The notes under the pieces: generated by a model
Database searches by the model: none
Told to the model about the DNA's origin: nothing
What the model saw: the letters and a program-made list of their open reading frames with translations, nothing else
Source: Planctomycetota bacterium
Lineage (GTDB): Bacteria; Planctomycetota; Phycisphaerae; Tepidisphaerales; Tepidisphaeraceae
NCBI GenBank assembly: GCA_026693085.1
Contig: JAPLNB010000381.1
Location: 1-64,000 of the forward strand
Length of the DNA stretch: 64,000 nucleotides
Reading direction: 5' to 3'
Shown here: positions 44,949-62,835 of the stretch, piece after piece
Numbering within the stretch: position 1 is the first letter of the stretch
How the letters are laid out: the number at the start of each line of letters is the position of its first letter
Position numbers and translations under genes: made by a program

Positions 44949-45704
44949 TCAGGGGAACAAGATGGGGTACTGGACAGGGCCGGTGTAGCGAGGGAGGTTG
45001 TAGAACATATCATGCGTCTTCCATCGCTCGAAGAACATGTAGTGGCCGTCGACGAAGATGACATTGGAGGAGCCTAGGGCCCAGCCTAACGAGTTGTGAG
45101 CCTCTTCGTTCACCTTGTTGTCGTGGCGGGCTGAGGGATAATGATTAGTGTTTTTGTTCTCGGGAGACGAGCGCCCGTTATGGTCGGCGTCCCACATTCC
45201 ATCGAAGATCGTCAGGCTGTTGACCTCGCCCAGGAGTAGCTTGTTTGCCGGGTTGAGCACCTTCGTGAGCCGGCACGCATTCTCCGGCCACGTGCGCACA
45301 TGCGGAATTCGATTACCGGCCCCCGCGATGAGCCTGTTCAAAGCATAGCTGTACTGATACTGATCGGGTGGGGTCAGGATGCCCAGAGGGCACTTGAGCA
45401 CTTTGTCGCTCTTCCCCAAGTACTGCCACAACGCGCTCTGCTTCATGTCGCGGTTGCTCTGCCAATGGATCCAGTCCTCCGGCTGCGGACCAAAGTACGC
45501 TGCCGCCAGCGGAAGCGCGCCCCGGTAGTCGTTCGCGTAGCCTAGCAACGCGATGCCAACCTGCCTCATGTTCGAGGCGCAGGCCACCCGATAGGACTGG
45601 CGCTTCACGCGGGAGAGCGCCGGAAGCAAGATGGCGATGAGCACTGCGATGATGCCGATGACGACCAGCAGTTCAACCAGGGTGAAAGCCTTGTGCTTCT
45701 TCAT
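44949..45704 (-). CDS. Pseudopilin-like protein, tandem copy A
   Basis: A 251-residue protein; GGAGG lies about eight bases before ATG 45704. It begins MKKHKAFTLVELLVVIGIIA, a type IV prepilin signal with Glu at mature position 5, then ALSRVKRQSYRVACASNMRQ, the planctomycete pseudopilin neck. The middle (PEDWIHWQSNRDMKQ, KCPLGILTPPDQYQYSY) is shared with copies B and C. The C-terminal third is its own up to NVIFVDGHYMFFERWK, the H-x9-DG-like end motif. It is expected to be cut by prepilin peptidase and assembled or secreted by a type II/IV machine. It lies 28 bp after copy B and may share a transcript. Confidence 0.87.
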   Translation of the reverse strand: MKKHKAFTLVELLVVIGIIAVLIAILLPALSRVKRQSYRVACASNMRQVGIALLGYANDYRGALPLAAAYFGPQPEDWIHWQSNRDMKQSALWQYLGKSDKVLKCPLGILTPPDQYQYSYALNRLIAGAGNRIPHVRTWPENACRLTKVLNPANKLLLGEVNSLTIFDGMWDADHNGRSSPENKNTNHYPSARHDNKVNEEAHNSLGWALGSSNVIFVDGHYMFFERWKTHDMFYNLPRYTGPVQYPILFP

Positions 45705-45732
45705 AGGTTGGTCCTCCGGGTTCTGCGCCGGC

Positions 45733-46479
45733 TCAATCCGCGCCTGGGGGCGTGTCGCACATGGGGCCGTCGAAGCGAGGATCGGAGTGGTACCATGTGC
45801 GTGTCTTCCATCGCTGGATGGGCATGTAGTGGCCATCGACGGCGATCACGTGGGTCCAGCCGATGAATACATAGACACAACGCAGGTTTTCGTTATCCGA
45901 GTAGTGGCGAACCGACAGTCTGTCCACAACATGGCCCGGCGGCCCCATGTGCATCATGTTGGGGGACCACATCCCGTCGAAGATGGATTCGGGATCCGGC
46001 TCCGCGAGCATGATCTTCTGCGAGGGATGGACCACTTTCGTCAGGCGGCACGCACTCTCCGGCCACGTGCGCACATGTGGATTTCCATTACCGCCCCCCG
46101 CGATGTCGCTGTTCAAACCATAGCTGTACTGATACTGATCGGGTGGGGTCAGGATGCCCAGAGGGCACTTGAGCACTTTGTCGCTCTTCCCCAGGTACGA
46201 CCACAATGCGCTCTGCTTCACGTCGCGGTTGCTCTGCCAATGGATCCAGTCCTCCGGCTGCGGACCAAAGTTCCATGCCGCCAGCGGAAGCGCGCCCCGG
46301 TGGTCGTTCGCGTAGCCCAGCAACGCGATGCCAACCTGACGCATGTTGGAGGCACAGGCGACGCGATAGGACTGGCGCTTCACACGCGAGAGCGCCGGAA
46401 GCAAGATGGCGATGAGCACTGCGATGATGCCGATGACGACCAGCAGTTCAACCAGGGTGAAAGCCTTGTGCTTCTTCAT
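45733..46479 (-). CDS. Pseudopilin-like protein, tandem copy B (mosaic)
   Basis: A 248-residue protein from ATG 46479 with the same GGAGG leader as copy A. Its first half matches copy A closely (NFGPQPEDWIHWQSNRD, CPLGILTPPDQYQYSY, HVRTWPE), while its last 60 residues match copy C (SVRHYSDNENLRCVYV, GHYMPIQRWK, DPRFDGPMCDTPPGAD). It is therefore a mosaic, best explained by gene conversion or unequal crossing-over in the array. It has the prepilin signal KAFTLVELLVV and the terminal AVDGHYM motif. Role as for copy A. Confidence 0.87.
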   Translation of the reverse strand: MKKHKAFTLVELLVVIGIIAVLIAILLPALSRVKRQSYRVACASNMRQVGIALLGYANDHRGALPLAAWNFGPQPEDWIHWQSNRDVKQSALWSYLGKSDKVLKCPLGILTPPDQYQYSYGLNSDIAGGGNGNPHVRTWPESACRLTKVVHPSQKIMLAEPDPESIFDGMWSPNMMHMGPPGHVVDRLSVRHYSDNENLRCVYVFIGWTHVIAVDGHYMPIQRWKTRTWYHSDPRFDGPMCDTPPGAD

Positions 46480-46507
46480 AGGTTGGTCCTCCGGGTTCTG
46501 CGCCGGC

Positions 46508-47263
46508 TCAATCCGCCCCTGGGGGCGTGTCGCACATGGGGCCGTCGAAGCGGGGGTCGCAGTAGTACGGGGCGCGTATCCTCCATCGTTGGATGGGCAT
46601 GTAGTGGCCATCGACGGCGATGGCGTGGGTCCAGCCGATGTATACATAGACACAACGCAGGTTTTCGTTATCCGAGTAGTGGCGAACCGACAGATAGTAC
46701 TGGGGTAGACTACCGGGTGGGATTACGGAGTGCGGCCCATCGGCGGACCACGCGCCGTCGAAGATGGTTTCGGGATTCGGCTCGACGAGCATGACCTTCT
46801 GCGAAGGGTGGAGGACATGGTTGAGCTTGCACCGGTTTTCCGGCCACCCGTGCAAACGGCTCACGGCCGAATCTGAGACCCCAGTGAGCTTCATATTGAC
46901 GGCATAGCTGTACTGGTACTGATCGGGTGGGCGCAGGATGCCCAGAGGGCACTTGAGCACTTTGTCGCTCTTCCCCAAGTACTGCCACAACGCGCTCTGC
47001 TTCATGTCGCGGTTGTTCTGCCAATGGATCCAGTCCCCCGCCTGCGGACCACTCCACATCGCCCCCAGCGGAAACGACCCGCGGTAATCCTGCGCGTAGC
47101 CTAGCAACGCGATGCCAACCTGACGCATGTTGGAGGCACAGGCGACGCGATAGGACTGGCGCTTCACACGCGAGAGCGCCGGAAGCAAGATGGCAATGAG
47201 CACTGCGATGATGGCGATGACGACCAGGAGTTCAACCAGGGTGAAAGCTTTTCGTTTACACAT
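46508..47263 (-). CDS. Pseudopilin-like protein, tandem copy C
   Basis: A 251-residue protein; GGAG lies eight bases before ATG 47263. It begins MCKRKAFTLVELLVVIAIIA, slightly different from the MKKHKAF start of A and B, so it may be the founder or the most diverged copy. The shared middle (CPLGILRPPDQYQYSY) is followed by unique sequence and then the C-terminus it shares with B (SVRHYSDNENLRCVYV, GPMCDTPPGAD). It is the first of the array in transcription order, 40 bp after the S8 protease gene on the same strand. Confidence 0.87.
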   Translation of the reverse strand: MCKRKAFTLVELLVVIAIIAVLIAILLPALSRVKRQSYRVACASNMRQVGIALLGYAQDYRGSFPLGAMWSGPQAGDWIHWQNNRDMKQSALWQYLGKSDKVLKCPLGILRPPDQYQYSYAVNMKLTGVSDSAVSRLHGWPENRCKLNHVLHPSQKVMLVEPNPETIFDGAWSADGPHSVIPPGSLPQYYLSVRHYSDNENLRCVYVYIGWTHAIAVDGHYMPIQRWRIRAPYYCDPRFDGPMCDTPPGAD

Positions 47264-47303
47264 TGTTGGTACTCCATGGAGTGGTACCACGTCCTGCTCC
47301 ATT

Positions 47304-50300
47304 TCAAGGAATGTTGGTCAATACATCGTTCGAATCATTGTCGATCACGGTGTCCGTCCCGGTTCCACCATCCACTGTGTCTTGCGTACCGTTATCCCAA
47401 GCATAGAACTCATCGTCCCCGTAACCTCCATACATATAATCGGATCCGGTGGCGCCTTTGAGTGTGTCATTCCCGTTCTCACCAAGGATGTAATCGTTGC
47501 CGTCCTCACCATAAAGTTCATCGTTCCCATCGCCGCCGTACGCGCCATCACCGCCCGGGCCACCGAAGATCGTGTCATTGCCATCGTTGCCCCAAATGTA
47601 GTCCCCTGTGCCTGTCGAAGCTCCGTCCGACTCGCCGAACAGTATGTCATCACCGTAGTCGCCGTAGATGGAGTCGGAGTCATCGCCGCCTGCGATGTAG
47701 TCGCTGCCGTAGGAGTCGTAGCCCCCTTGGCCACGGCCGTTGCCTTCATTCTCGACCCCGCCGTCGAGGTAGTCTGAGCCTTCTTCGCCGAAGATGGTGT
47801 CGTCGCCGATGCCGCCGTAGACGGTATCGTTGCCGAGGCCGGCCCATATTTCGTCATTGGCGGAGGAGCCGGTGAGGAAGTCGTTGCCGTCGCCGCCGGT
47901 GAGGGTGCAGGCGGCGGTTCCGCCGGTGAGGGTATCGTTGACGGAGCCGGCGATGATCCGTTCGATGTCGGAGCGGACGTTGTCGTATTCGGCGGCGGCG
48001 CCGTCGTTGGCGGTATTGTCGAGTGAGATGGAAAGGGCGGCGTTTCGGGAGGAGTAATCGGCGGTATCGATGCCTGGGCCACCCCAGAGGGCGTCGGCGC
48101 CGCCGGCGCCGTCGAGGGTGTCGTTGTAGGCGTTGCCATAGAGGGCGTTGGGGCGGGCGTTGCCGATGATGAGATCGCCGGATTGGTAGATATTCCACTC
48201 CTCATCGAGGCTGATCTCGTTGCTGCCCTTGACGTTTTCGATTCCGAGATCGCTGCTGAGGTAGAGGACGAGGGAATTCCAGTAATCGCTGAAGGCTGGG
48301 TTGCCGATGCCCGGAATGCCGGCGACGGAGAGGTCGAGGTTGAAAGCTTCGACGAAATCGGTGAAATCGAGGGTGTCGGTGTCGAGATTGGGGTCTTCGG
48401 TGACAAAGTCAGTGCCGAGGTTGCCGCCGGTGAATACGAAGACGTCGCTGCCGGCGCCGCCGTAGAGGGCGTCGTTGCCGTGGCCACCGTGGAGGGTATC
48501 GTTGCCGGCGACGCCATAGAGGCTGTCGTCAAGGTCGTTGCCGAAGAGCGCATTGGGGCGGGTGTTGCCGTCGATGGTATCGGTGAAGGGGGTTCCGCGG
48601 ACGTTTTCGATGGCGGTGTTGTCGCTGAGGTAGAGGACAAGGGAGGAGTTGCTGAGTGCGGCGGTGCCGGAGCTGCGGGTTCCGACATTGACGAGGCTGA
48701 GATTGATGGCCTCGGCGAAGGCGGCGAAATCGAGGGTATCGGCATCGGAGGAGGCGGCTTCGGTGATGACATCGGAGCCGAGGGTTTCGCCGGGGAAAGC
48801 GAAGGTGTCGCTGCCGGTGCCGGCGACGAGGTCGTCGTCGTCGGCGTCGCCGCGGAGGAGATCGCGGCCGGCGCCTGCGTCGAGGGTATCGTCTCCGGGT
48901 CCGCCGACGAGGGTATCGTCGCCGTCGCCACCGATGAGGGAGTCGGCACCGTCGCCGCCGTCGAGGCGGTCTGCGCCGGAGCCGGCGGTGAGGGTATCGT
49001 TGCCGGAGCCGCCGATGAGGCTGACGGAGGTGGTGACGCTGCTATTGACGGTGATGGTGTCGTTGCCGGCGAGGCCATCGATGGTGAGCCAACTGAGGTC
49101 GGAAGTGGTATAGGTATAGGTTGGGTTTTGGCTGTTGACGTAGACCTCGGTGTCGGTGCCATTGATTTGGACGGTGATGGTGTCAGCGGAGGCGGTTCCG
49201 GTGACGGTCTGAGGGCCGCGGATGAGGTCGAGGGTTCGTCGGGCGTTGAGGCGTCCGCCGGTGATGGTTTTGCCGACGAGATTCCCGATGGGGTCAACGC
49301 CGTCGCGGAGGGCGGCTATGACATCGGTATAGGTGGCGGTGGGAGCGATGGTGAAGGCGAGTGCGGCGACGGCGGTGACGAAGGGGGTAGCCATGGAGGT
49401 GCCGCCGATGGTTTCGTAGTCGGTGCTGAGCAGAAAGGTGTCCATCGCGGTGGTTGAGGAGGTGGGGAAGGTGCTCAGGATGCGGGTGCCGGGGGCGGCC
49501 AGAAGCACGCGGGTATCGCCGTAGTTTGAGAAGTCGGCGAGATTGTCGTTGCGATCGGTGGCGGCGATGGCGATGACGTTGTCGAAGTCATCGCAATAGG
49601 CGGCGGGGTAGACAGGGTTTACGTAGATGTCGGTGGAGTCGTTGCCGGCAGCGGCGACGAAAAGCATATCGGCGTCGTGATTCCGCTCTACTGCGTCCTT
49701 GATGGCTTGGAAGTCGCCGGAGCCCCCGTAGCTGTTGTTGGTGACCCAGATGTTGATGCCGGCATTGCGCAGGTCGGTGGCGTAGTTGATGCCGGCGGCG
49801 ATGATGTCATCACTAGTGTCGCCATACGCATCAAAGATCTTGATGGCCACGATTTTTGCATTCCAGGCCACTCCTGCGACGCCGCTGGAGTTGTTCCCCG
49901 CGGCGGCGATGATGCCGGCGACGTGGGTGCCGTGGTAGAAGTCGTCCATGGGGTCGCCGCGAGACGGGTCGTTTTCCGGGACGGTGAAGTTGGCGCCGTG
50001 GATGTCGTCGATGACGCCGTTGTTGTCATTGTCAATATCGTCGCCGGGGATTTCGTTGGGGTTGGTCCAGATGTTGGCGGCGAGGTCGGGATGGTTGTAA
50101 TCGACGCCGGTGTCGATGATGCCGATGACGGTGCTGGAGCTTCCGGTGGTGATGTCCCAGGCATCGGTGGCGTCGATGTCAGCGTCGGTGGTTCCGTATT
50201 CCTGAGCGGTGTTGTTGAGGGCGTATTGTGAACTGAAGGATGTATCGTTGGCGGTTTGATTGATCCACATGATTCCATTAGGCTCGGCCCAGAGGAAGAC

Positions 50301-50690
50301 GCCACGACGGGTGAGGGAGGCCGCCAGGTCGGTGTAGCCGAGGCCGTCGGGGAGCTTGACCAGGGCCACGTCGTCCACGCCGACCGTGTGCTGGAATTCG
50401 GCTGCGATGTCGAGGTCGGCAATGATGGATTTGGCAGTGGCGGGAGTGCCAGGGCGGTCCAGACGCAGTTTCACCAGCCATTCGCCTCGTTTCACGTACT
50501 GGTCATGGCCCTGCCAGTTGATCGAGGCCAGGTTGTGCTCGAGCATCTCCGAAGGGCTTAGTTGATGGGTCTCCAAGCGATCAATAAACCCTTGTGGGTC
50601 GTTGCCCACGGAGGACAGGAGCATTCGGCCTTCGAGCTGCTCGACTGTGGCACCTGCGGCGTTGGCGAGGAGTCGCCGACGGGTGCGCAT
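47304..50690 (-). CDS. LEPR-XLL type S8 (subtilisin) protease with RTX-type calcium-binding repeats
   Basis: A 1128-residue exported protease. ATG 50690 is preferred (TAGA after a 9-base G run); an in-frame ATG at 50708 lies beyond that run. EQLEGRMLLS near residue 20 is the LEPR-XLL-like N-terminal motif of planctomycete surface proteins. The S8 domain (about 90-480) has the full triad: IIDTGVDYNHPDL (Asp), HGTHVAGIIAAAG (His) and GGTSMATPF (Ser). The C-terminal half has about 20 GGxGxDxLx nonapeptides in several blocks (GGDGADSLIGGDGDDTLVGG, GGAGSDVFVF), which fold as calcium beta-rolls and favour export unfolded, folding outside the cell. It stands after the SecA-like gene on the same strand and is the likely cargo of the export locus upstream. 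Confidence 0.9.
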   Translation of the reverse strand: MRTRRRLLANAAGATVEQLEGRMLLSSVGNDPQGFIDRLETHQLSPSEMLEHNLASINWQGHDQYVKRGEWLVKLRLDRPGTPATAKSIIADLDIAAEFQHTVGVDDVALVKLPDGLGYTDLAASLTRRGVFLWAEPNGIMWINQTANDTSFSSQYALNNTAQEYGTTDADIDATDAWDITTGSSSTVIGIIDTGVDYNHPDLAANIWTNPNEIPGDDIDNDNNGVIDDIHGANFTVPENDPSRGDPMDDFYHGTHVAGIIAAAGNNSSGVAGVAWNAKIVAIKIFDAYGDTSDDIIAAGINYATDLRNAGINIWVTNNSYGGSGDFQAIKDAVERNHDADMLFVAAAGNDSTDIYVNPVYPAAYCDDFDNVIAIAATDRNDNLADFSNYGDTRVLLAAPGTRILSTFPTSSTTAMDTFLLSTDYETIGGTSMATPFVTAVAALAFTIAPTATYTDVIAALRDGVDPIGNLVGKTITGGRLNARRTLDLIRGPQTVTGTASADTITVQINGTDTEVYVNSQNPTYTYTTSDLSWLTIDGLAGNDTITVNSSVTTSVSLIGGSGNDTLTAGSGADRLDGGDGADSLIGGDGDDTLVGGPGDDTLDAGAGRDLLRGDADDDDLVAGTGSDTFAFPGETLGSDVITEAASSDADTLDFAAFAEAINLSLVNVGTRSSGTAALSNSSLVLYLSDNTAIENVRGTPFTDTIDGNTRPNALFGNDLDDSLYGVAGNDTLHGGHGNDALYGGAGSDVFVFTGGNLGTDFVTEDPNLDTDTLDFTDFVEAFNLDLSVAGIPGIGNPAFSDYWNSLVLYLSSDLGIENVKGSNEISLDEEWNIYQSGDLIIGNARPNALYGNAYNDTLDGAGGADALWGGPGIDTADYSSRNAALSISLDNTANDGAAAEYDNVRSDIERIIAGSVNDTLTGGTAACTLTGGDGNDFLTGSSANDEIWAGLGNDTVYGGIGDDTIFGEEGSDYLDGGVENEGNGRGQGGYDSYGSDYIAGGDDSDSIYGDYGDDILFGESDGASTGTGDYIWGNDGNDTIFGGPGGDGAYGGDGNDELYGEDGNDYILGENGNDTLKGATGSDYMYGGYGDDEFYAWDNGTQDTVDGGTGTDTVIDNDSNDVLTNIP

Positions 50691-51001
50691 TCTACCCCCC
50701 CCCATACCGAACTGAAACGATACGAGAAACACAAGTCCTTCTGTTCCCACCCGGTAGGAAATGGGGTTCTGGAGGGACCGGGGGGTGAATACCGGCGGTG
50801 CCAGCCAGCTATACGAATAGCCAAGGTATCCGGGCCAGCAGTTCCCCGCAAACACCCGAGGCTCCGCCACCAAGCCCGAGATACAACCTTGCGATTCAAG
50901 TTAGCGTTAGGCGGGCCAATGTCAACAAAAAAATAAGATAGGGGAGGATCCGCGGGAGGGCCGCGGGCGTTTTCTGCGGGGGGGGCGGTGTGTCGTTGGC
51001 G
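50691..51001. other. Intergenic region between the SecA-like and S8 protease genes
   Basis: A 311-bp gap. The 9-base C run at 50695-50703 lies between two in-frame starts of the protease. A protease promoter is expected here but no clear -35/-10 pair was found. No heptad repeat or RNA gene was seen. Confidence 0.4.
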
Positions 51002-52963
51002 TTAGAAGGGGAGGGATTCGTCCATCCAGTCGTCGGCGCGCATGACTTGTTTGCGGTTGAAGCGGGCGAGTTGTTCGGCTTTGCCTTGGGCGTATTTGAT
51101 GAGGCGTTTGGGGCCCATGAGTCGCCAGGAGTGGCGGAGGTGTTTGGCGTGTCGGATGAAGAGGTCGTCGGCGGCGCAGCAGTACATTTGAGCGGAGCCG
51201 GGATCGCCTTGTCGGGCGGCTCGGCCGAAGAGCTGGCGATCGACGCGGCCTGAGCCATGGGGTTCGGTGGCGAGGACGAAGAGTCCGCCGACGTCGACGA
51301 CGCCGCGGGCGAGCTTGATGTCGGTTCCGCGGCCGGCCATGTTGGTGGCGACGGTGATCTGGCCGAGCTGACCGGCCTGGGCGATGATATCGGCTTCTTG
51401 TTTGGTCTGATTGGCATTGAGGACGCGATGGGGGAGGTTGAGAGCGGTGAGTCGGTGGGAGAGTTCTTCGGAGGCCCAGACGGAGCGGGTGCCGGCGAGG
51501 ACTGGTGTTCCGCGTTCGTGGAGTTCTTTGATGCGGTTGGCGACGGCGGTCCACTTCTGGTCTTCGTTGTCGAACATGACGGTGGGAAGGTGTATGCGGA
51601 TACAGGGTTCGTTGGTGGGGACGCGGACGATGGCTCGGCGGTAGATTTGCCAGAGTTCGGTTCGGGCCTCCCAGGCGGTTCCGGTCATTCCGCAGAGGAA
51701 GGGGTATTGGCGGAAGAATCGTTGGAAGGAGAGTCGGGCGAGGTTTTCCTTGTCGGCAGTGACTTTGACGTTTTCCTTGACTTCGATGGCCTGGTGGAGG
51801 CCATGCCGCCAGGAGCGGTCGGCCATGATACGGCCGGTGAACTCATCGACGATGACTACTTTTTGCTCCATTTTCTTGGTTTTTTCGTTTTCCTCTTCGA
51901 CGACGAGGTATTGCTCGTCCTTGAGGAAGCAGTTGTGGGCGGTGAGTGCCTGGGTGACGAGTTCTTCGCGGCGGCGTTTGCCTCGCCAGAAGCCTTCCTC
52001 GCCGGCGAGTTCTTCGAGGCGGTTTTCGCCGCGTGGGGTGAGGTCGATGGAGCGGACGGTCCAGTCGATGGTGAAGTCTTTTTTATTTTCGAGTTTTTGG
52101 GAGAATTCGTTGGCCTTGCGGTAGCGTTCGGAGTTAGGCTCGTCGTCGGGGGAGTTGGAGATGATGAGGGGTGTGACGGCTTCGTCGATGAGTACGGAGT
52201 CGGCTTCGTCGACGATGCAACGGAAGAGTCCGGGGACCTGGAGTTGTCGGCCGAAGTTTCCGCGGAGCATTCCGACGGAGGTTTGGGCGGAGTTTCGGAG
52301 AGTTCCGAGGGCGATCTGGTCGCGGAGGAAATCGGCGACGAGTTCTTTTTGGGTGCAGTAGACGATTTCACGGCGGTAATGGTCGGGGCGTTGTTCGTGT
52401 TCGGTTTCGTGGATGATAAAGCCGACGCGGAGGCCCACAAGTTTGTAGATTGGGCCCATTTCTTCGGCGTCGCGTTGAACGAGGTAGTCGTTGACGGTGA
52501 TGATGTGAGTGGGTTTTCCGGCCCATCCCCAGAGGGAGGCGGTGATGGCGGCGGTGATGGTTTTGCCTTCGCCGGTGGCCATTTCGCAGATGTAGCCTTC
52601 GGACATGGCGAGGGCACCGACGATCTGGCAGAGGAAGGGGCGTTTTTCGATAGCGCGGAGGACGCCTTCGCGGACGAGGGCGACACCGCGATCGAGGGCG
52701 GGGCCTTTGAGTCGGCCGAGTCGGGCGAGATCGCGGTGGAGTTTGACGTGCTCCTGGAAGTGTGAGGAGGAGAGGTTATGGATTTCGGGTTCGAGGGCTT
52801 CGATGCGTTCGGCCTGTTTCCAGAGGCGAGGGAGGACGGGTTTTCGGTTTTTGTAGTATCCGACGAAGGAGCTGATGAGGGCGTCCGGGCCGCGGAGGTC
52901 GGGGGCTTTGACCTTGCGGGCGTTGAAGATTTGCCAGAATTCATTGACAGCGGTTTGGCTCAT
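51002..52963 (-). CDS. Short SecA-like translocase ATPase
   Basis: A 653-residue protein from ATG 52963. It has the SecA motor: Walker A MATGEGKT (near 130), IVDEADSVLIDEA, the preprotein cross-linking insert (about 220-370), IVDEFTGRIMADRSW, GMTGTA, TNMAGRGTDIKLA and GRAARQGDPGS. It ends about 50 residues after that, so the helical scaffold/wing and the C-terminal zinc tail of normal SecA (about 850-950 residues) are missing. This points to a second, specialised SecA (SecA2-like) rather than the housekeeping one. It is the fourth gene of the HlyD/M50 series and directly precedes the S8 protease, so a role in exporting particular substrates is inferred. Confidence 0.87.
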   Translation of the reverse strand: MSQTAVNEFWQIFNARKVKAPDLRGPDALISSFVGYYKNRKPVLPRLWKQAERIEALEPEIHNLSSSHFQEHVKLHRDLARLGRLKGPALDRGVALVREGVLRAIEKRPFLCQIVGALAMSEGYICEMATGEGKTITAAITASLWGWAGKPTHIITVNDYLVQRDAEEMGPIYKLVGLRVGFIIHETEHEQRPDHYRREIVYCTQKELVADFLRDQIALGTLRNSAQTSVGMLRGNFGRQLQVPGLFRCIVDEADSVLIDEAVTPLIISNSPDDEPNSERYRKANEFSQKLENKKDFTIDWTVRSIDLTPRGENRLEELAGEEGFWRGKRRREELVTQALTAHNCFLKDEQYLVVEEENEKTKKMEQKVVIVDEFTGRIMADRSWRHGLHQAIEVKENVKVTADKENLARLSFQRFFRQYPFLCGMTGTAWEARTELWQIYRRAIVRVPTNEPCIRIHLPTVMFDNEDQKWTAVANRIKELHERGTPVLAGTRSVWASEELSHRLTALNLPHRVLNANQTKQEADIIAQAGQLGQITVATNMAGRGTDIKLARGVVDVGGLFVLATEPHGSGRVDRQLFGRAARQGDPGSAQMYCCAADDLFIRHAKHLRHSWRLMGPKRLIKYAQGKAEQLARFNRKQVMRADDWMDESLPF

Positions 52964-53023: not shown

Positions 53024-55252
53024 TCAGGTCCACTTGCTGCGCTGCGTACTGCTTTGGATCAACTGCCAGAGGCGGCGTTCCCAGCGTTTGTAGATGGGTT
53101 CGTTGAGGAGAGGGAAGCGGACGTGGGCGCGTTGGCCGGGGAGGTAATGGTAATCGGGATTGGGGAGGACCATGTAGGCGGCGTACATGGGGCGCAGGAG
53201 GCGTTTGTAGTTCTGGTCGGCGGGGTCGGTCTGGATGTCGCCGCCGGCGGCTTGCCCAAGAGCCGAAGTGGGGAGTTCGGCGATGGGGCTGGGACGCCGG
53301 AAGGGGTGGTTGGGGCCGGAGCCGGTGCGTTCGAGGGGTGCGGAGAGGTTTTTGGAGCGGTAGAGGGAGCCGTCCTTGATGCCGACGAGGCGGACCTCGG
53401 GGTTGAGGTTTTTCTGGAGGGCGATGGGAAAGGCGTCGAAGATTTGCTGGGCATCTTCCTGGTCGATGACGGCGGTGATGCGGAGGTTATTGACGTCGGC
53501 GACGGTGGCGACTTCCTCGGCCTGCTGGATGTACTTACCGTGGAGGTCCTTGATCTGGGGTGCGATGAGCAGGCCGTCGAACGGGGCGCGGATGGTGAGG
53601 GCGGCGAGCTTGGCATTGAGTTCGGCGAGCTTGCCTTCGGTGGCGGTGAGCTGTTCTTTGTAGGTATCGATTCGGCTGGAGTCGGTGGCGCGGGCGAGGC
53701 GAACGTATGCTTCGTAGGCTTTTATGTCGGCCCGGAAGCTGGCGATCTGGGCCTCGAGTTCGCGGTCGCGGCAGACGAGGATGATGTCGTCTTTTTTGAG
53801 GGACTGGCCGTCGCGGGCGAGGATTTGCTCGACGATGCCGGGGACTTCGGCGTGGATTTTGATTTCGCGGATGGGTTGGGCGACGCCTTCGGCGTAGAGG
53901 CCGAGGGGGACGGGGATGAAGCCGACGATGAAGACAGCGACGGCGACGGCGGAGAGGACCCAGATGGCGGCGCGGGTGCGTTTGCGGTGGAGTTCGGGTT
54001 CGATGAGGAGGTATTTGAGGGTTTTGATGACGGGGACGGCGAGCCAGGTGATGACGCCGCCGATGGCCATGAGGATACCGAGGACGGGGACCTGCTCGTA
54101 GACCATGAAGATGATGAAGATTCCGACGAGGGTTCGGTAGAAGGAGGAGGTGATGCAGTAGTTGAAGAGCCAGAAGCGTTGGATGGGCGGGGGGAGTGGC
54201 TGGGACATCTTAACGCGGAAGAGATGGCGTTTGATGAGTCCCATGGTGTATTCGGTGGAGCGGTAGCGGAGGTTGGGGATTTCGAGGAAGTCGGCGAGCA
54301 TGTAGTAGCCGTCGTAACGGAGCAGGGGGTTGGCGTTGAAGAGGAGAGTGGAGACAGAGGCGACGAGCATGGCGTTGTAGGCGAGGTGGTTGACGGAGTT
54401 GGTGGGGCTGGTGTTGAGCCAGACGAAGGCCATGATGGCAGCGACGAAGAGTTCGAAGATCATCCCTCCGGCGCCGACGGCGATGCGTTGCCACTTATTG
54501 GAGAAGGCCCAGGCGGAGGAGGCGTCAACGTAGGGAGCTGGGACGAGGACGAGGAACATGATGCCGAGTTCGTGGACTTCGCCGCCGTAGCGACGGCAGA
54601 TGAATCCGTGTCCGAGTTCGTGGATGGCCTTGATTCCGATGAAGGTAGCCCAGAGCCAGAGCCAGTTGGAGGGTGCGATGGCGTTGGAGGCGGCGGCAGT
54701 GAGGGTATTCCATTCTGGGGCGAGTTTGGCGACAGCGAGGCCGACGACGAGGATCCAGATGATGGCACCGAAGGTTGAGAGGAAGGGGCCCATGACGGGC
54801 ATCCAGCGTTTGAGGAAAGTGTCGGCGTCCCAGAGTGGGATTCTGGGGAAGAGGATGTTCATCAAGCGGCCTTGCCATTGTCGCTTGACCATTTGTTTGT
54901 GACGTCGGAGGAGGACGGCGGCGTCTGGGGTGACGTCGGCCTCGATGAGGTTAGCGGAGTGGAGTTGGGAGAGGATCTGGATGACTTCGGGCTGAGTGGG
55001 CGCATCATCGGCGAGTTGTCCGCCGACGAGTTCCCAGCATTCGGCGACGGTGCGGGATCCGTCGAGGAGTCCGACGAATCGCCAGGCGGGCGCGCTGAGG
55101 CGGTGGAACTGGTTTCCGGCGGGGTCGCGGACGACGTACCAGCGGTCGCCCCGGTAGAATTGGCGGGAGACCTGGGTGCTGGGTCGGAGCTTGGCTTTGA
55201 GGTCCGCGACGCGGTACCAGGACTCGGAAAACGTTGGACGCATTTGTGGCAT
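53024..55252 (-). CDS. PqqD-like / M50 site-2 protease / HlyD fusion membrane protein
   Basis: A 742-residue inner-membrane protein; AAGG lies eight bases before ATG 55252. Residues about 30-105 form a PqqD-like winged helix (YVVRDPAGNQFHRLSAPAWR, LLDGSRTVAECWELV), a peptide-binding module in RiPP pathways. The membrane part has about eight helices, HELGH at 211-215 and NPLLRYDGYY near 308, a modified form of the S2P NPxxxxDG motif. A final helix leads to an HlyD/biotin-lipoyl domain (IKIHAEVPGIVEQI, APFDGLLIAPQIKDLHG) and a coiled coil. M50-HlyD proteins of this type occur in RiPP and planctomycete export loci. It may bind cargo leaders, cut them or act as a channel part. It is flanked by the GAF-HlyD and SecA-like genes. 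Confidence 0.85.
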   Translation of the reverse strand: MPQMRPTFSESWYRVADLKAKLRPSTQVSRQFYRGDRWYVVRDPAGNQFHRLSAPAWRFVGLLDGSRTVAECWELVGGQLADDAPTQPEVIQILSQLHSANLIEADVTPDAAVLLRRHKQMVKRQWQGRLMNILFPRIPLWDADTFLKRWMPVMGPFLSTFGAIIWILVVGLAVAKLAPEWNTLTAAASNAIAPSNWLWLWATFIGIKAIHELGHGFICRRYGGEVHELGIMFLVLVPAPYVDASSAWAFSNKWQRIAVGAGGMIFELFVAAIMAFVWLNTSPTNSVNHLAYNAMLVASVSTLLFNANPLLRYDGYYMLADFLEIPNLRYRSTEYTMGLIKRHLFRVKMSQPLPPPIQRFWLFNYCITSSFYRTLVGIFIIFMVYEQVPVLGILMAIGGVITWLAVPVIKTLKYLLIEPELHRKRTRAAIWVLSAVAVAVFIVGFIPVPLGLYAEGVAQPIREIKIHAEVPGIVEQILARDGQSLKKDDIILVCRDRELEAQIASFRADIKAYEAYVRLARATDSSRIDTYKEQLTATEGKLAELNAKLAALTIRAPFDGLLIAPQIKDLHGKYIQQAEEVATVADVNNLRITAVIDQEDAQQIFDAFPIALQKNLNPEVRLVGIKDGSLYRSKNLSAPLERTGSGPNHPFRRPSPIAELPTSALGQAAGGDIQTDPADQNYKRLLRPMYAAYMVLPNPDYHYLPGQRAHVRFPLLNEPIYKRWERRLWQLIQSSTQRSKWT

Positions 55253-55354: not shown

Positions 55355-57343
55355 TTAGATCCAGAACTTGAGTTTCATCCAGTCGACGAGGCGGTGGGTC
55401 CACCACCAGATGAGGCGGCGAGGCTCGATGTTGACACGGGCTTCGCCGGTGAGCTCTGGGCCCATGTTGTCATCGGGGTTTTGGATGGCGGCGAAGACGC
55501 TGAAGACGTTCTCGGCCTCTTTGGGGCTTCCTTGGGGGACGATGCGGGTGATGTCGAACTTGAAGCCCTTGTTGGGATCGGTGGTGGTGGCGAGTTCGCC
55601 GTCGAAATCGCGTTTGATCTGGCCGGAGCGGGCGAGGTCGAGGATGCGTTTGACTTCCTGGACGTCGCGGTCGGGGATCTGGAGTTCGGCTTCGACGGCG
55701 ATGCGTTTTGGGTTCTTGGGGTCGGTGATGGCGATTTCAAAGAGGGGGTCGCCTTGCTTGACGGGAGCGCCTTGGCGTTCGTAGAGGTCGCCTTTGAGGA
55801 TCATGCAATCGAAGAGGGCTTTGATGTCGCCCTGAGAGATCTGGTATTCGAGGAGTTGGACTTGGGCCTCGGCTTTTTCTCTCCTGGCCATGGCGATGTT
55901 GAGTTCGCCGCCCTTGTTGTCCTCGGAGCGGACCTTGATGATCTCGGCATCCTGGGTATTGACTTCGGCTTTGGCTTCGAAAAGCCTAATTTTGAGCTCG
56001 AAGGTATCCATGCGGGCCATGACTTGGCCTTGCTTGACGGGAATGCCGGGCTTGAAGAAGACTTCCTTGAGCTTGCCTTCGTAGGGGGCACAGACGGCGC
56101 GTTTTTCCAGGGCGACGAGGCGGAAGGGAGCGCGGACGCGGTAGGTGGGTTTGAAGAAGGTGACGAAGCAGATGAGTGCGATGGAGAAGAGGATAATGAG
56201 CTTGACGCCCATGTGTTTTGGGCCGAGGGCATGCTTGGAGATATCGCGGATGGAGTGGCCGATTTTGACCCAGATGACGCGGTCGTTTTCGTAGCGGTCG
56301 TAGAGCTGAGGAGCGAGGAGTTCGATGGCGACGGCGACGGCGCCTTCAACCTGTTCGCTGATTTTCTGTCGTGGGGGGAACTCGAGGGTGATGACGCCGA
56401 CGGTTTCGTCGCGGCGGCGGAGAGGAGCGGAGAGGACGGCGCCGCCACCGTAGTTACGGGAGAGTTGTGCGGCGGAGCGAGTGACGTTTTGGGAGGATTG
56501 TCCTTCGGGGTCGTATTGGACGGGCTCTTCCTGGTCGTAGCACTCTTCCATGGTTTTCTGGAGTTCGACGATGAGTTCCTGTTTTTTGTCGAACTTTTCG
56601 GTATGGGAGAGGGCTTTGACCTTGACGAGTCGGCCCTTGTACCATCCGAGTGCGACGCGGGAGGCGCCGGTTCGTGTGGCGAGTTCGTTGCAGAGTCCCA
56701 TGGCAGCGGCCTCGAAGCCTTCGGCGTTGGAGACGGCGCCTGTGAACTGGAGGACGTTTTGATGGCGTTCGGCCATGACGCGGGCCTGGTCGGCGCCGCG
56801 ACGGAGGCCGAAAAGCTCGAAATAACCGGCGACGAGCTGCATGGAGGAGAGGCGTTGCTTGGCGCGGTCCATGTCTCGGCAGCGGGTGATGACGGCGGAG
56901 ACGGCGATGGTTTGGCCTTCGGCGGCGAGGATGGTGACGAGGCAGTATTGGGAGTCGCCGCCGTCGGGTGATCCGATTTCGATAGCGCCATCCTTGGCCT
57001 GCTGGACGCAGGGCTGGGCGAGGTTTTGGAAGGCGCGGATGGCAGCGGCGCGGACATCCTGGGTGCTCTCATCGGGTCGGATATGGGCAATGAGGCGAAG
57101 GCCCATCTGGTCGCCTTGGCGTTCGAGGAGGAAGGCAGCGGCCTCGGTGCCTGCGACATGTACGGCCTGTGTGGTCAGCAGGTCGTTGAGAAAAGACTGC
57201 AGATCCTTGGCATCGAGCAGCCGTTGCACGATTTTGGAGCGTGCTGGGGCGGCTGGGGTCTGCTGCGGTTGCTGGTCCTGCTGTCCCGTTGATGGCTCGA
57301 CGATTTTGGAACTCACGTTACTATCCACCGGTAAGAAGGCCAA
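55355..57343 (-). CDS. GAF-GAF-transmembrane-HlyD fusion protein
   Basis: Up to 662 residues from TTG 57343; GTG 57316 is equally possible and neither has a ribosome site. Residues about 35-190 and 200-340 read as two GAF-like sensor domains (GLRLIAHIRPDE, CLVTILAAEGQTIAV; RTGASRVALGWYKGRL, GAVLSAPLRRRDETVGVITLEF). One helix follows (LIILFSIALICFVTFF), then an HlyD/lipoyl adaptor domain (VCAPYEGKLKEVFFKPGIPVKQGQVMA, KGDLYERQGAPVKQGDPLFEI) and a coiled coil. It therefore joins a cytosolic ligand or redox sensor to a periplasmic adaptor. HlyD proteins bridge inner-membrane transporters to outer-membrane channels. A fusion to GAF is rare; it may gate export. It lies between the HlyD gene and the M50 fusion. 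Confidence 0.82.
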   Translation of the reverse strand: MAFLPVDSNVSSKIVEPSTGQQDQQPQQTPAAPARSKIVQRLLDAKDLQSFLNDLLTTQAVHVAGTEAAAFLLERQGDQMGLRLIAHIRPDESTQDVRAAAIRAFQNLAQPCVQQAKDGAIEIGSPDGGDSQYCLVTILAAEGQTIAVSAVITRCRDMDRAKQRLSSMQLVAGYFELFGLRRGADQARVMAERHQNVLQFTGAVSNAEGFEAAAMGLCNELATRTGASRVALGWYKGRLVKVKALSHTEKFDKKQELIVELQKTMEECYDQEEPVQYDPEGQSSQNVTRSAAQLSRNYGGGAVLSAPLRRRDETVGVITLEFPPRQKISEQVEGAVAVAIELLAPQLYDRYENDRVIWVKIGHSIRDISKHALGPKHMGVKLIILFSIALICFVTFFKPTYRVRAPFRLVALEKRAVCAPYEGKLKEVFFKPGIPVKQGQVMARMDTFELKIRLFEAKAEVNTQDAEIIKVRSEDNKGGELNIAMARREKAEAQVQLLEYQISQGDIKALFDCMILKGDLYERQGAPVKQGDPLFEIAITDPKNPKRIAVEAELQIPDRDVQEVKRILDLARSGQIKRDFDGELATTTDPNKGFKFDITRIVPQGSPKEAENVFSVFAAIQNPDDNMGPELTGEARVNIEPRRLIWWWTHRLVDWMKLKFWI

Positions 57344-57487: not shown

Positions 57488-58375
57488 TCATTGCGCTTTC
57501 GTTTCAACCTGGGCAATCTTGCTCGGCAGGACCACGCGGACCTGCAACCCGGAGGGCTTGGCCTCGGGGTTGAGCATTTCAAGGCGAACCACTTGTCTAT
57601 CGCTGTCGGCTTTAACAACAGGCGAGATAAAGATGATCTTGGCTTTACGGAGTTTGGGGTCGTCGGTGTAGTAGACGTCGAGTTCCTGGTCTATTTTGAG
57701 GGTGAGCGAGACGGCGGATTTGGGTGTGAATTGGATCCAGAGGGGGTGGTTGTTGACGATGGTGATGGCGGGTTTCTGGAAGTCGATGACTTCGCCGGCC
57801 TTGGCGTCGATGCGTTCGACGATGCCATCGAATTTGGCGCGGAGTTCCATGGCTTGGAGGACCGCCAGAGCCCGCTTGTACTGGTCTTCGTTCTTTTTCT
57901 TTTCGTTCTGTGCCTTCGTGATTTCGAGGGCGGTCAACTCGACATCGAGCTTGGATTTTTCCCATTCGACGACGGAGGCAACCTGGCCGTTCTTGAAGAG
58001 ATCATCCAAGCGGGCGAACTCGTTCCTGGCTTGCTTGTGCTTGGTTTCGGCGGCATTGATATCAACGTCGCTATGAGCGACGAGGTCCTTGTACATGTCG
58101 GCCTCGGTCTGTTCGACGCGGACGTCGAGGCGCATGAGGAGTTGGCCGGCTTTGACTTTATCTCCGCATTTAACCAGGACTTCATCGATGACGCCGCCGA
58201 GCTTGAGGCGTTGCTCGGAGCGATCGGAGGGTTCGGTGTTGGCGACTTTTTCGACATCAGTGGCGGATTGGATAGGGGCAGGGGCGGGGACTTCGGCAGC
58301 GGAAGCGGAAAGGGAAAGGCAGAGGGCGAGCAGACTCGTGGGCAGCGCTGAAGCCAGAAAACGAGTTAGAAGCAT
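57488..58375 (-). CDS. HlyD family periplasmic adaptor
   Basis: A 295-residue exported protein; AAAGG lies six bases before ATG 58375. It has a signal peptide (ALPTSLLALCLSLSASA), a split lipoyl domain (KLGGVIDEVLVKCGDKVKAGQLLM and ELRAKFDGIVERIDAKAGEVID, given as key parts), a long alpha-hairpin coiled coil between them (about 85-175) and a beta-barrel with membrane-proximal strands (LWIQFTPKSAVSLTLKI). This is the RND/ABC adaptor layout. It is the first gene of the HlyD, GAF-HlyD, M50-HlyD, SecA-like series, with gaps of 144, 102 and 60 bp. No RND pump, ABC exporter or TolC gene is in the window. Confidence 0.9.
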   Translation of the reverse strand: MLLTRFLASALPTSLLALCLSLSASAAEVPAPAPIQSATDVEKVANTEPSDRSEQRLKLGGVIDEVLVKCGDKVKAGQLLMRLDVRVEQTEADMYKDLVAHSDVDINAAETKHKQARNEFARLDDLFKNGQVASVVEWEKSKLDVELTALEITKAQNEKKKNEDQYKRALAVLQAMELRAKFDGIVERIDAKAGEVIDFQKPAITIVNNHPLWIQFTPKSAVSLTLKIDQELDVYYTDDPKLRKAKIIFISPVVKADSDRQVVRLEMLNPEAKPSGLQVRVVLPSKIAQVETKAQ

Positions 58376-58711
58376 TAGGAACCTTTCCGGCAACAATTGC
58401 CGATGTCGCGCATACACATGTTATTAAACCGGACCCCGTCGAAACCAAAAGCCGTGATAACCTATCCAAGAGGGATGGGCGGTCAAGGGGTTTTGGGAGT
58501 CCAAATAACCAAGCAATGCCACGGCCTATCTTAAGAACCGAGCGGTACCATAGCACAAAGACGGCACCAAGCCCATACCAGTTACGCTATCGGCGCGTTA
58601 TTGTTTGCCGCTTAACCGGATTGGGGAGCCGGCGGGATTGGGGGTAGCGTGGCAAGTGGCGGCGGGCGGGAGTCCGATAACTTTGGTGGAAAGGAGGAGA
58701 TATAAGGCGGC
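58376..58711. other. Intergenic region upstream of the HlyD gene
   Basis: A 336-bp gap between two minus-strand genes; it must hold the promoter of the export series. A small inverted repeat (CCGGCAA/TTGCCG at 58387-58402) lies just before the ribosome site of the HlyD gene. No RNA gene or other open frame of note was seen. Confidence 0.4.
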
Positions 58712-59092
58712 TCAGGAATAGCCGAGGGCGTCGAGGTCGTCTTCGTCCATGCCGAAATGGTGGCCGATTTCATGTAGGACGGTGGTTCGGACTTCTCGGA
58801 CGAGATCGTCCTGGGTGTCACTGACGAGTTCGATGTCTTCCTGGAAGATGAGGATGACATCAGGCAGGCGGGCGGTCTCGGTAACGGAGCGGTCGGTGAG
58901 GGGGTGGCCGAGGTAGAGTCCGAGGAGCAGTTCGTCGTCATCGAGGCCGGAATCGCGGAGTTGTTTGCGTGTGGGACGGAAGCGGATTTCGACGGCGATC
59001 TCTTCGAGGTGAGTGGCGAAGGGCTGGGGGACGTCGGCAAGGGCTTGCTCGACGAGTTCGGCGAATTTGCGTTTACTGACGTGGTAAGCCAC
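58712..59092 (-). CDS. Zincin-like metallopeptidase (MMP-like/PF06262 type)
   Basis: A 126-residue cytosolic protein from GTG 59092 with AAAGGA about ten bases upstream. The family is small conserved proteins with a minimal zincin fold: FRPTRKQLRD, LLGLYLGHPL, PDVILIFQEDIE and the zinc site TTVLHEIGHHFGMDEDDL (HExxH with a following Asp). Function is unproven. It is divergent from sppA with 75 bp between the starts. Confidence 0.88.
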   Translation of the reverse strand: MAYHVSKRKFAELVEQALADVPQPFATHLEEIAVEIRFRPTRKQLRDSGLDDDELLLGLYLGHPLTDRSVTETARLPDVILIFQEDIELVSDTQDDLVREVRTTVLHEIGHHFGMDEDDLDALGYS

Positions 59093-59167
59093 GGTACATA
59101 TCCTTTATTGTGCGATGGAATGATAGCGGGGGAGGGAGAAGAAGACAGGCGGGGGTGAGAGGTGATC

Positions 59168-60178
59168 ATGAGAAGTCGAAGCAGCATCGGCGGCGTTATG
59201 GGGTTTCTCAGGGTGATGGGGTGCATGGTGACGGTGGTTGTGTTGGCGGGGTGCGGGGTGCCGAGTTTTTTGGTGACTCCGGTTTCGTCGTCAACGAAAT
59301 TGAGGGAGGAGGTGGTGGAGGAGGGGAAGGGGTTGTGGCCGGAGAAGGTGGTGATCATCGAGGTGGAGGGGTTGATTATCAATGCGAGGTCTGGGGGGTT
59401 TCTGCAGACGAAGGAGAATGCGGTGAGCCTGTTCGTGCAGCAGATGGAGAAGGCGGCGAAGGATCCGAAGGTGAAGGCGGTGGTGTTGCGGGTGAATTCG
59501 CCGGGGGGGACGGTGGCGGCGACGGATGTGATGTATGAGACGGTGTTGAAATTCAGGGAGAAGACGAAGAAGCCGGTGGTGGCGTCGGCGCAGGAGGTGG
59601 CGGCGAGCGGGGGATATTATGTGTCGTGCGCGGCGGACAAGATTGTGGTGCAGCCGACGAGCGTGGTGGGGAGCATTGGGGTGATTTTCCAGACCTTCGA
59701 CATCAGCGGGACGCTGGGGAAGATCGGGGCGAGGACGGAGGCGATCAAGAGCGGGCCGATGAAGGATATGGGCTCGCCGTTCAAGCCGTTGACGGGGCCG
59801 GAACGGGCGGTGATGCAGGGGATGGTGGACGAGTTTTATGGGCGGTTCAAGGGGGTTGTGAAGGCAAGGCGGGGGTTGGAGGATGGGCGAGTGGAGTCGG
59901 TGAGCGACGGGCGGGTATTCAGCGGGGAGCAGGCGGTGAGATTGGGGCTGGCGGATCAGGCGGGGATGCTGACGGATGCGATCGAGATGGCGAAGGAGAT
60001 GGGGAAGGCCAGTGATGCGGAGGTGGTGTTGTATAAGAGGCCATACGGGTATGGGGGTTCGATTTATGCGAAGGATTCGGGTGGGGTGCCGACGGCGAAT
60101 GTGATCCAGCTTAATTTGGAGCCATCGCGGGCATTTTTGCCGACGGGGTTTTATTATTTGTGGGAGCCGGGACAGTGA
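59168..60178 (+). CDS. sppA: Signal peptide peptidase SppA (S49 family), lipoprotein type
   Basis: A 336-residue protein; GAGAGG lies five bases before ATG 59168 (a GTG at 59162 overlaps that site). The signal ends VVVLAGC, a lipobox, so it is lipid-anchored rather than bitopic. The S49 core has LRVNSPGGTVAATD, EVAASGGYYVSCAAD with the nucleophile Ser, TSVVGSIGVIF and AIKSGPMKDMGSP with the general-base Lys. It degrades cleaved signal peptides and perhaps membrane proteins. Length is that of the short, single-domain bacterial SppA. The zinc-ribbon/VWA-like gene follows after a heptad repeat. Confidence 0.9.
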   Translation: MRSRSSIGGVMGFLRVMGCMVTVVVLAGCGVPSFLVTPVSSSTKLREEVVEEGKGLWPEKVVIIEVEGLIINARSGGFLQTKENAVSLFVQQMEKAAKDPKVKAVVLRVNSPGGTVAATDVMYETVLKFREKTKKPVVASAQEVAASGGYYVSCAADKIVVQPTSVVGSIGVIFQTFDISGTLGKIGARTEAIKSGPMKDMGSPFKPLTGPERAVMQGMVDEFYGRFKGVVKARRGLEDGRVESVSDGRVFSGEQAVRLGLADQAGMLTDAIEMAKEMGKASDAEVVLYKRPYGYGGSIYAKDSGGVPTANVIQLNLEPSRAFLPTGFYYLWEPGQ

Positions 60179-60215: not shown

Positions 60216-60263
60216 GGGTGAGGGGCTTGCAAAATGGGGAGGGAGAACAAAAATCAAAAAGCC

Positions 60264-61280
60264 ATGATTCGCATCAGTTGCACAGATTGTGACGCGGTGT
60301 TGGAGATTGACGACGCGTTTGCGGGTGGGGTGTGCCGGTGCAAGCATTGCGGGACGATTCAGACGGTGCCGAAGGAGCTGAAGCGGGCGGCGACGCCAAT
60401 GGCGGCGGGGGTGAAGGGGGTGAAGGCGGCGGAAGAGAAGCCGAAGGCGCTGGTTCATCAGGCGACGGGGGCTGGAGCGCTGGATGAGTTGGCGCATGTG
60501 GTGGCCAGCAGCGGGCTGGCGGGGGCGCATCATGTGCAACGGGAAGCGCATCGGGCGGAGGCGAGGGGGAATAACAGGAAGAGGATGGTGCTGATGGGGG
60601 TTGGGGCGGTGGTTTTGGTGCTGCTGGGGGCGGCGGTGACGTATTGGGTCATGCGAAGCGGGCGGGCGACTGGTGGTGGGCAGCAGAATGGGGCGGCGGA
60701 GGTGGTGGGGAAGGTGGCGGAGCCGAAGAAGGTCGGGTCGGGGGTGGCGGCGGTGAAGGGGCCGAGCTTTATGGGGGTGGCGCTGAAGGGGCCGAGCGTG
60801 GTGTATGTGCTGGATCGGGGGCAGGGGACGGTGGAGACGTTTGATTCGATGAAGGCGGCAGTGATCAATTCGGCGGCGTCGCTGGGGGTGGAGCGGAAGT
60901 TTGCTGTGATATTTTGGGAGACGGATACGATCATCGCGTGGCCGGGGGAGGGGCTGAGGGCGGCAACGGAGCAGAATGTGAATGAGTGCAGGGGGGCGGT
61001 GACGGATGTGTATTGTCTTGGGCAGAGCAAGGTGGGGCCGGCGCTGGAGAAGGCGATTGCGCAGAACCCGGCGGAGATCGTGCTGGCGACGGGGAAGGGG
61101 GGATTGGATGAGCAGTTTGTGAATGCGGTGATGGCGGCGAGGAAAAGCGGCAGTGTGAAGATCCACACGTTTTGTCTGGGGAATGGGGGGTCGGTGGAGG
61201 CGATGAAGGCGGTGGCGACGAAGACGGGGGGTGAGTTTCGGGCGATTGGGACGGGGGAGTTGAGGGAGTTTGTGGAATAA
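60264..61280 (+). CDS. Zinc-ribbon, transmembrane, VWA-like protein
   Basis: A 338-residue protein. ATG 60264 gives the natural MIRISCTDCD start; ATG 60234, which has a better ribosome site (AGGGG, eight bases), would add ten residues rich in Lys/Asn. Four Cys (CTDC ... CRCKHC) form a zinc ribbon at about residues 6-32. A linker and one helix (LMGVGAVVLVLLGAAVTYWVM) follow, then a von Willebrand A-like domain (GPSVVYVLDRGQGT, KFAVIFWETDTIIAW, EIVLATGKGGLDEQF, VKIHTFCLG). The MIDAS DxSxS is degenerate (DRGQGT), so metal binding is doubtful. Planctomycetes have many such proteins. The role is unknown. Confidence 0.75.
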   Translation: MIRISCTDCDAVLEIDDAFAGGVCRCKHCGTIQTVPKELKRAATPMAAGVKGVKAAEEKPKALVHQATGAGALDELAHVVASSGLAGAHHVQREAHRAEARGNNRKRMVLMGVGAVVLVLLGAAVTYWVMRSGRATGGGQQNGAAEVVGKVAEPKKVGSGVAAVKGPSFMGVALKGPSVVYVLDRGQGTVETFDSMKAAVINSAASLGVERKFAVIFWETDTIIAWPGEGLRAATEQNVNECRGAVTDVYCLGQSKVGPALEKAIAQNPAEIVLATGKGGLDEQFVNAVMAARKSGSVKIHTFCLGNGGSVEAMKAVATKTGGEFRAIGTGELREFVE

Positions 61281-62713: not shown

Positions 62714-62835
62714 GATTGCAAGTGTATATATAAAACGAACTTGCGCTAACTCAAGTCGTGGCGCTGCTTTACGGAGGAACTAAATTCAATGAAAATGTGT
62801 TGGCTATGCCTGCACGAGCAAGTATATTGTTCATT

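Follow-up and report, generated by a model that had tools for sequence, protein, structure and literature searches.

The window analysed here, a stretch of 64,000 nucleotides from a Planctomycetota bacterium, encodes a protein in which a PqqD-like domain, an M50 protease and an HlyD adaptor are joined, and the question raised by the locus is what such a protein would recognise, cut and transfer. The fusion gene is one open reading frame of 742 aa with an ATG start at positions 53024-55252, read from 55252 to 53024; the coordinates given in an earlier sequence-only reading stand, and the strand is corrected to minus. The presence of all three parts in a single chain, as that reading had proposed, is confirmed. 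The RRE/PqqD-fold domain, a predicted cytosolic leader reader, comprises residues ~27-105 (54938-55174, minus strand). The Pfam PqqD model matches the fusion protein weakly (E 0.0035, 18.1 bits vs a gathering cut-off of 23.4) and finds 17 of 18 family members, with a best E of 1.5e-6. The AlphaFold model of residues 1-135, computed with 52 sequences, has a pLDDT of 84.8 and the three-strand, three-helix arrangement of an RRE (strands 27-33, 36-43 and 48-53; helices 54-61, 69-83 and 87-99). The best credible PDB matches of this model in Foldseek are leader-bound TbiB1, a leader/substrate-bound heterocyclase and MibB, with probabilities of 0.80-1.00 but E-values of 0.015 or weaker, none below 0.001. 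Matches to HIV integrase were of low probability and TM-score and were rejected as spurious. The assignment of the RRE fold, which agrees with the PqqD fold suggested earlier for residues 25-110, is based on the AlphaFold model, the family-wide Pfam matches and the Foldseek matches taken together, with the daptide protease model NF041824 also covering this region.

The M50 site-2-protease membrane region comprises residues ~157-446 (53915-54784, minus strand), as delimited by Pfam M50, conservation and AlphaFold, and has ~7 predicted membrane helices with an N-in/C-out orientation; an odd number of helices would give a cytosolic RRE domain and a periplasmic adaptor. The HELGH zinc motif lies at residues 211-215 (54608-54622, minus strand), and the third zinc ligand motif of M50 is NPLLRYDG at residues 308-315 (54308-54331, minus strand), which is what the sequence-only reading had called a modified NPxxxxDG. 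No variation is seen at H211, E212, H215, N306, N308, R312 and D314 across 40 planctomycete sequences, and the residues of the zinc site (HExxH, NPLxRxDG) are again invariant in 53 sequences from many phyla. Such invariance across phyla implies that the M50 part is probably catalytic. The HlyD/lipoyl-hairpin adaptor, predicted to be periplasmic, comprises residues ~447-719 (53096-53914, minus strand). Both Pfam M50 and HlyD_3 score above their cut-offs, the full-length AlphaFold model (pLDDT 89.9) shows a membrane domain and, after it, the barrel and hairpin of an adaptor, and in Foldseek the adaptor part matches MexA, AcrA and MacA with E down to 1e-12, in keeping with the lipoyl/coiled-coil adaptor recognised before.

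The fusion gene is the third in an operon on the minus strand, preceded by a free HlyD adaptor (309 aa, 57488-58417), whose position is kept in most planctomycete loci, and by a GAF-HlyD gene (662 aa, 55355-57343; Pfam GAF and HlyD_3) that is found beside most homologues, and followed by a SecA-like ATPase (653 aa, 51002-52963). Three HlyD-containing proteins are thus encoded in the operon by Pfam. Directly downstream lies a candidate cargo, an S8 subtilase with RTX repeats by domain matches (47304-50873, minus strand). No ABC transporter was recognised in or beside the operon by domain search, and genes of the OEP (TolC) type are encoded elsewhere in the host genome. Among its neighbours the fusion gene counts HlyD, GAF-HlyD, SecA-like and S8-RTX genes, as well as pseudopilins and other peptidases.

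A scan of GTDB species genomes returned at least 555 confirmed relatives of the fusion protein, of which 80 were kept for locus comparison. These belong to the Planctomycetota, Verrucomicrobiota, alpha-, beta- and gammaproteobacteria, Desulfobacterota, Nitrospirota and others, although single phylum assignments may be wrong because most of the genomes are metagenome bins. A match to the fusion protein at E≤0.001 is present in 51 of 61 related genomes, most of full length, so the joined protein is no chance product, and the four-gene operon is found in most of the planctomycete loci examined. Relatives are annotated publicly as 'PqqD family peptide modification chaperone' or 'HlyD family efflux transporter', and for this reason the fusion is visible in the databases. 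The SecA-like gene adjoins the fusion gene in 37 of 40 planctomycete loci, as does the GAF-HlyD gene in most, and in 72 of the 80 kept loci across phyla. The SecA-like protein shares with SecA and SecA2 the Walker A motif, the DEAD box, and the preprotein-crosslinking and P-loop domains, and is unlike them in its length (~640-680 aa), in its place beside a protease-adaptor gene and in its score, which lies below every SecA and SecA2 cut-off (at best 537.6 bits vs 814). Its 96 homologues measure 638-683 aa, all end early in the C-terminal region, and none extends more than 29 residues beyond the end of the window protein. Ordinary SecA2 is excluded as its identity by score and length, and the host genome encodes a separate SecA elsewhere in a longer open frame. 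SecA is missing from many gammaproteobacterial loci and from all loci seen of a more distant branch (described below), so the SecA-like protein is not essential to the core; OEP genes sit within the gammaproteobacterial operons.

The segment VEQLEGRMLLSS near the N-terminus of the S8-RTX protein resembles the NCBIfam family NF012209 (LEPR-XLL), and the LEPR-XLL-like LEGRMLL is located at 50616-50636 (minus strand); NCBI's own model was therefore searched across genomes. NF012209 gave no match to the S8-RTX protein of the window at E≤10, despite LEGRMLL at the corresponding place. It was found in 26 of the 61 related genomes, all of which have a fusion homologue at E≤1e-50; among these planctomycete relatives the model occurs in 26 of 47 genomes with the fusion vs none of 14 without it (Fisher p 1e-4, phylogeny ignored). 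When 20 genomes were picked solely for carrying the fusion, 18 had NF012209 proteins, usually one each, vs 0 of 14 control genomes. In 13 of the fusion-selected genomes the NF012209 gene is on the operon's own contig, and in 10 of the 18 LEPR-bearing genomes it lies at most 6 kb from the fusion gene, where 0.17 would be expected within 10 kb. In a gammaproteobacterial order (195 genomes; fusion counted at E≤1e-140) 16 genomes have both, 9 the fusion only, 3 LEPR only and 167 neither, giving LEPR in 16/25 with the fusion vs 3/170 without (Fisher p 1.5e-14, phylogeny ignored). In the Rhodobacterales, the order of Jannaschia seohaensis (G062), the corresponding numbers among 198 genomes are 8, 1, 1 and 188, that is 8/9 vs 1/189 (Fisher p 1.6e-12, phylogeny ignored), and in the sole LEPR-only genome of this order (G370) a still more distant relative lies ~3 kb away from the LEPR gene. 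The branches are separated by E-value thresholds chosen after the scores were seen to be bimodal, and all co-occurrence tests ignore phylogeny. Two genomes in which the operon is duplicated have two LEPR proteins, each pair being adjacent in G196 and on its own contig in G397.

Within the gammaproteobacterial order 9 of the 25 genomes with the fusion have no NF012209 call, and in 2 of these 9 a motif that the model does not recognise lies next to the operon. The giant open reading frames adjoining the operon in L239 and L238 carry LEPRLLFSATLD and MEERLLYSATVD, in genomes free of NF012209 calls, and the model therefore misses likely members. In the fusion loci the LEPR motif is enriched at the N-termini of large open reading frames and not in internal stretches; in planctomycetes a motif protein is near the operon in a minority of loci only. 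The largest likely cargo is an open frame of 14,672 aa. With a profile (A4) built from 25 LEPR segments, including that of the S8-RTX protein, 58 matches at E≤1 were obtained in the host genome, against an expectation of about 1; its match to the S8-RTX protein is circular because that segment contributed to the profile. Elsewhere in the class, A4 matches at E≤0.01 in 13 of 15 planctomycete genomes that carry the fusion vs 1 of 14 that do not (p 2e-5), the profile having been built partly from genomes like those in this test. The likely cargo proteins do share a leader-like motif, LExRxLL or LFDGA, as the sequence-only reading would lead one to expect.

A distant gammaproteobacterial branch (E ~1e-40 to 1e-110 to the fusion), in which no SecA was seen, is accompanied by giant proteins whose open reading frames start with LExRx[LM]FDGA, for example LEPRMLFDGA, LEQRILFDGA and LEKRYLFDGA. 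The E. coli plasmid NZ_CP081687 (L298, L329) has a TolC, HlyD, HlyD, M50-HlyD operon beside an Ig-like giant; the giant is encoded by a 13.4-kb gene and starts with LESRQLFDGA, as predicted from the distant branch. The same expectation, applied to a Pseudosulfitobacter plasmid, led to FEPRVLLSAD. Of the 5426 complete E. coli genomes, 24 carry a near-identical M50-HlyD gene, which is mostly plasmid-borne. No ABC transporter was recognised in the two annotated homologous operons (E. coli and Pseudosulfitobacter plasmids), and the sugar ABC transporter near the latter belongs to a separate sugar cluster. The RSP proteins of IncHI plasmids were considered because the E. coli plasmid locus holds an Ig-like giant, and were rejected as the same system, since the papers on them describe plasmid type IV export and mention no HlyD, TolC or M50. 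In four distant-branch loci an open reading frame of ~170-180 aa lies between the protease gene and the LFDGA giant (L234, 9808-12110; L257, 9101-11405; L259, 7627-9914; L258, 11146-13506).

The closest characterised relative of the fusion protein is MpaP, in which an RRE is joined to a site-2 protease. MpaP cleaves off daptide leaders that contain ELExMEAP, the products being cut after ELExxxxx (PMC10036551, PMC12338566). MpaP/DapP (NF041824, daptide_HExxH) and the fusion protein both have an N-terminal RRE on an M50 site-2 protease, and NF041824 matches fusion residues 27-397 with E 1.9e-47. The leader of MpaP has an N-terminal ELE motif (PMC10036551), so that the L-E-x core is common to it and to LExRxLL, although few residues are shared (LExM vs LExR). 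The substrates of MpaP are short peptides in a RiPP cluster, whereas the fusion protein has a C-terminal HlyD part, a secretion operon and large-protein neighbours, and with 162 bits vs a cut-off of 300 it is excluded from the daptide proteases. The epipeptide metalloprotease YydH/LiaK (NF058609) has a similar M50 HExxH core (E 1e-9) but acts on peptides, and its model has 246 positions, without HlyD; the fusion protein scores 38 vs a cut-off of 225. Type I systems (HlyB-HlyD-TolC, RTX adhesins) resemble the operon in HlyD, in the TolC-type channel of gammaproteobacteria and in giants with RTX or Ig repeats; the operon differs from them in having no recognised ABC transporter, a protease-fused adaptor, an N-terminal signal motif and, in one branch, a SecA-like motor. 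LEPR-XLL proteins (NF012209, LEPR-8K) have the same N-terminal motif as the giants linked to the operon, and the open-access full-text papers found name neither a machinery nor a function for it. The system does not fit the definition of a daptide protease, a RiPP cluster, a type I system (no ABC transporter being recognised) or SecA2. Among the full texts searched, mostly open-access papers, none describes a PqqD/M50/HlyD system; a prior description may exist outside them.

The fusion protein probably forms the core, in the inner membrane, of an apparatus dedicated to exporting and processing large LExRxLL-tagged proteins, and it probably reads and cuts the tag during export, because its gene cluster adjoins tag-sharing giants in many phyla. 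The cytosolic N-terminal RRE/PqqD domain would bind the LExRxLL segment of a newly made large protein. In the SecA-bearing branch the truncated SecA-like ATPase may push the chain, the passage of which would be aided by the three HlyD adaptors (free, GAF-linked and fused to the protease), and the chain would be delivered to a TolC-type outer-membrane channel. The M50 site may cut the leader just after the motif, between LExRxLL and S or between LExRxLF and D, and so free the cargo; this position is suggested by analogy with daptide leader cleavage. Binding of LExRxLL by the RRE and its cleavage by the M50 part are the most economical reading, since MpaP has the same pair of domains and its leader the same L-E-x core. 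The earlier proposal of recognition, cutting and transfer in one chain is retained as the best account of the protein, with large proteins rather than peptides as the likely cargo.

Classical site-2 proteases cleave regulators, and a GAF sensor domain is encoded in the operon. On these grounds the cluster and the LEPR giants might travel together as a giant-adhesin module while the PqqD-M50 part has another substrate, such as a regulator or an anti-sigma-like membrane protein, and does no more than sense export status through the GAF and HlyD parts. We consider this unlikely, since leader-processing proteases have RREs of this kind, the closest characterised relative being one such protease, and since the N-terminal motif is the only element found to be shared among the products of the fusion's neighbours. 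Somewhat less probable still is an ordinary type I system in which the fusion protein serves as assembly factor or adaptor and its PqqD and M50 parts hold the LEPR segment uncut, as a retention or targeting signal. RREs can act purely as binding modules, and RTX-type or Ig-like giants with TolC and HlyD do recall type I adhesin systems, but the invariant zinc site implies catalysis and no ABC transporter was recognised in the two annotated homologous operons or beside that of the window.

A divergent RiPP cluster would account for the homology to the daptide and epipeptide metalloproteases; here the fusion protein would process and export a short modified peptide encoded by an overlooked gene, and the giants would have no part in it. 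This is largely refuted and highly improbable, for any short intergenic open reading frame near the operon is conserved in at most 3 of 41 planctomycete loci, no RiPP-modifying enzyme adjoins it, and the score is far under the daptide cut-off; a classical RiPP cluster is excluded on the same absence of conserved short reading frames and modifying enzymes, and the RiPP pathway with short peptides suggested by the sequence-only reading is abandoned with it. The fusion protein is best placed with the RRE-guided site-2 leader proteases, and there is a substantial chance that the system as a whole is categorically new. Our fuller reading is more tentative, a serious possibility: an undescribed, ABC-free secretion system of many phyla which would select giants by their LExRxLL/LFDGA signal, cut them and export them, by means of RRE leader recognition and intramembrane proteolysis, joined in one branch by a truncated SecA motor.

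Many very large bacterial proteins carry the NCBI name 'LEPR-XLL domain-containing'. With the motif tied to a conserved RRE-protease-adaptor operon, it is probably a signal for export and processing, and the fusion operon is the candidate machinery for it. If this holds true, leader recognition of the RiPP type enters mainstream protein secretion and the SecA-like motor has a new use. Cargo annotation would also be gained for planctomycetes, in which a single operon may serve dozens of proteins.

The surroundings of the operon in the window contain several further genes. Three consecutive genes of the N_methyl pseudopilin type follow the S8-RTX gene (44949-47302, minus strand), two of them with weak DUF1559 matches. 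Upstream of the operon lies a Zincin_1 metallopeptidase (58712-59092, minus strand), and its cluster of open reading frames recurs in 14 loci. On the plus strand, an S49 peptidase (59162-60178) and a VWA/zinc-ribbon gene (60234-61280) recur in 10 and 11 loci, respectively, and at 62758-63663 lies a gene resembling transposases, to which DDE and IS1 match weakly.
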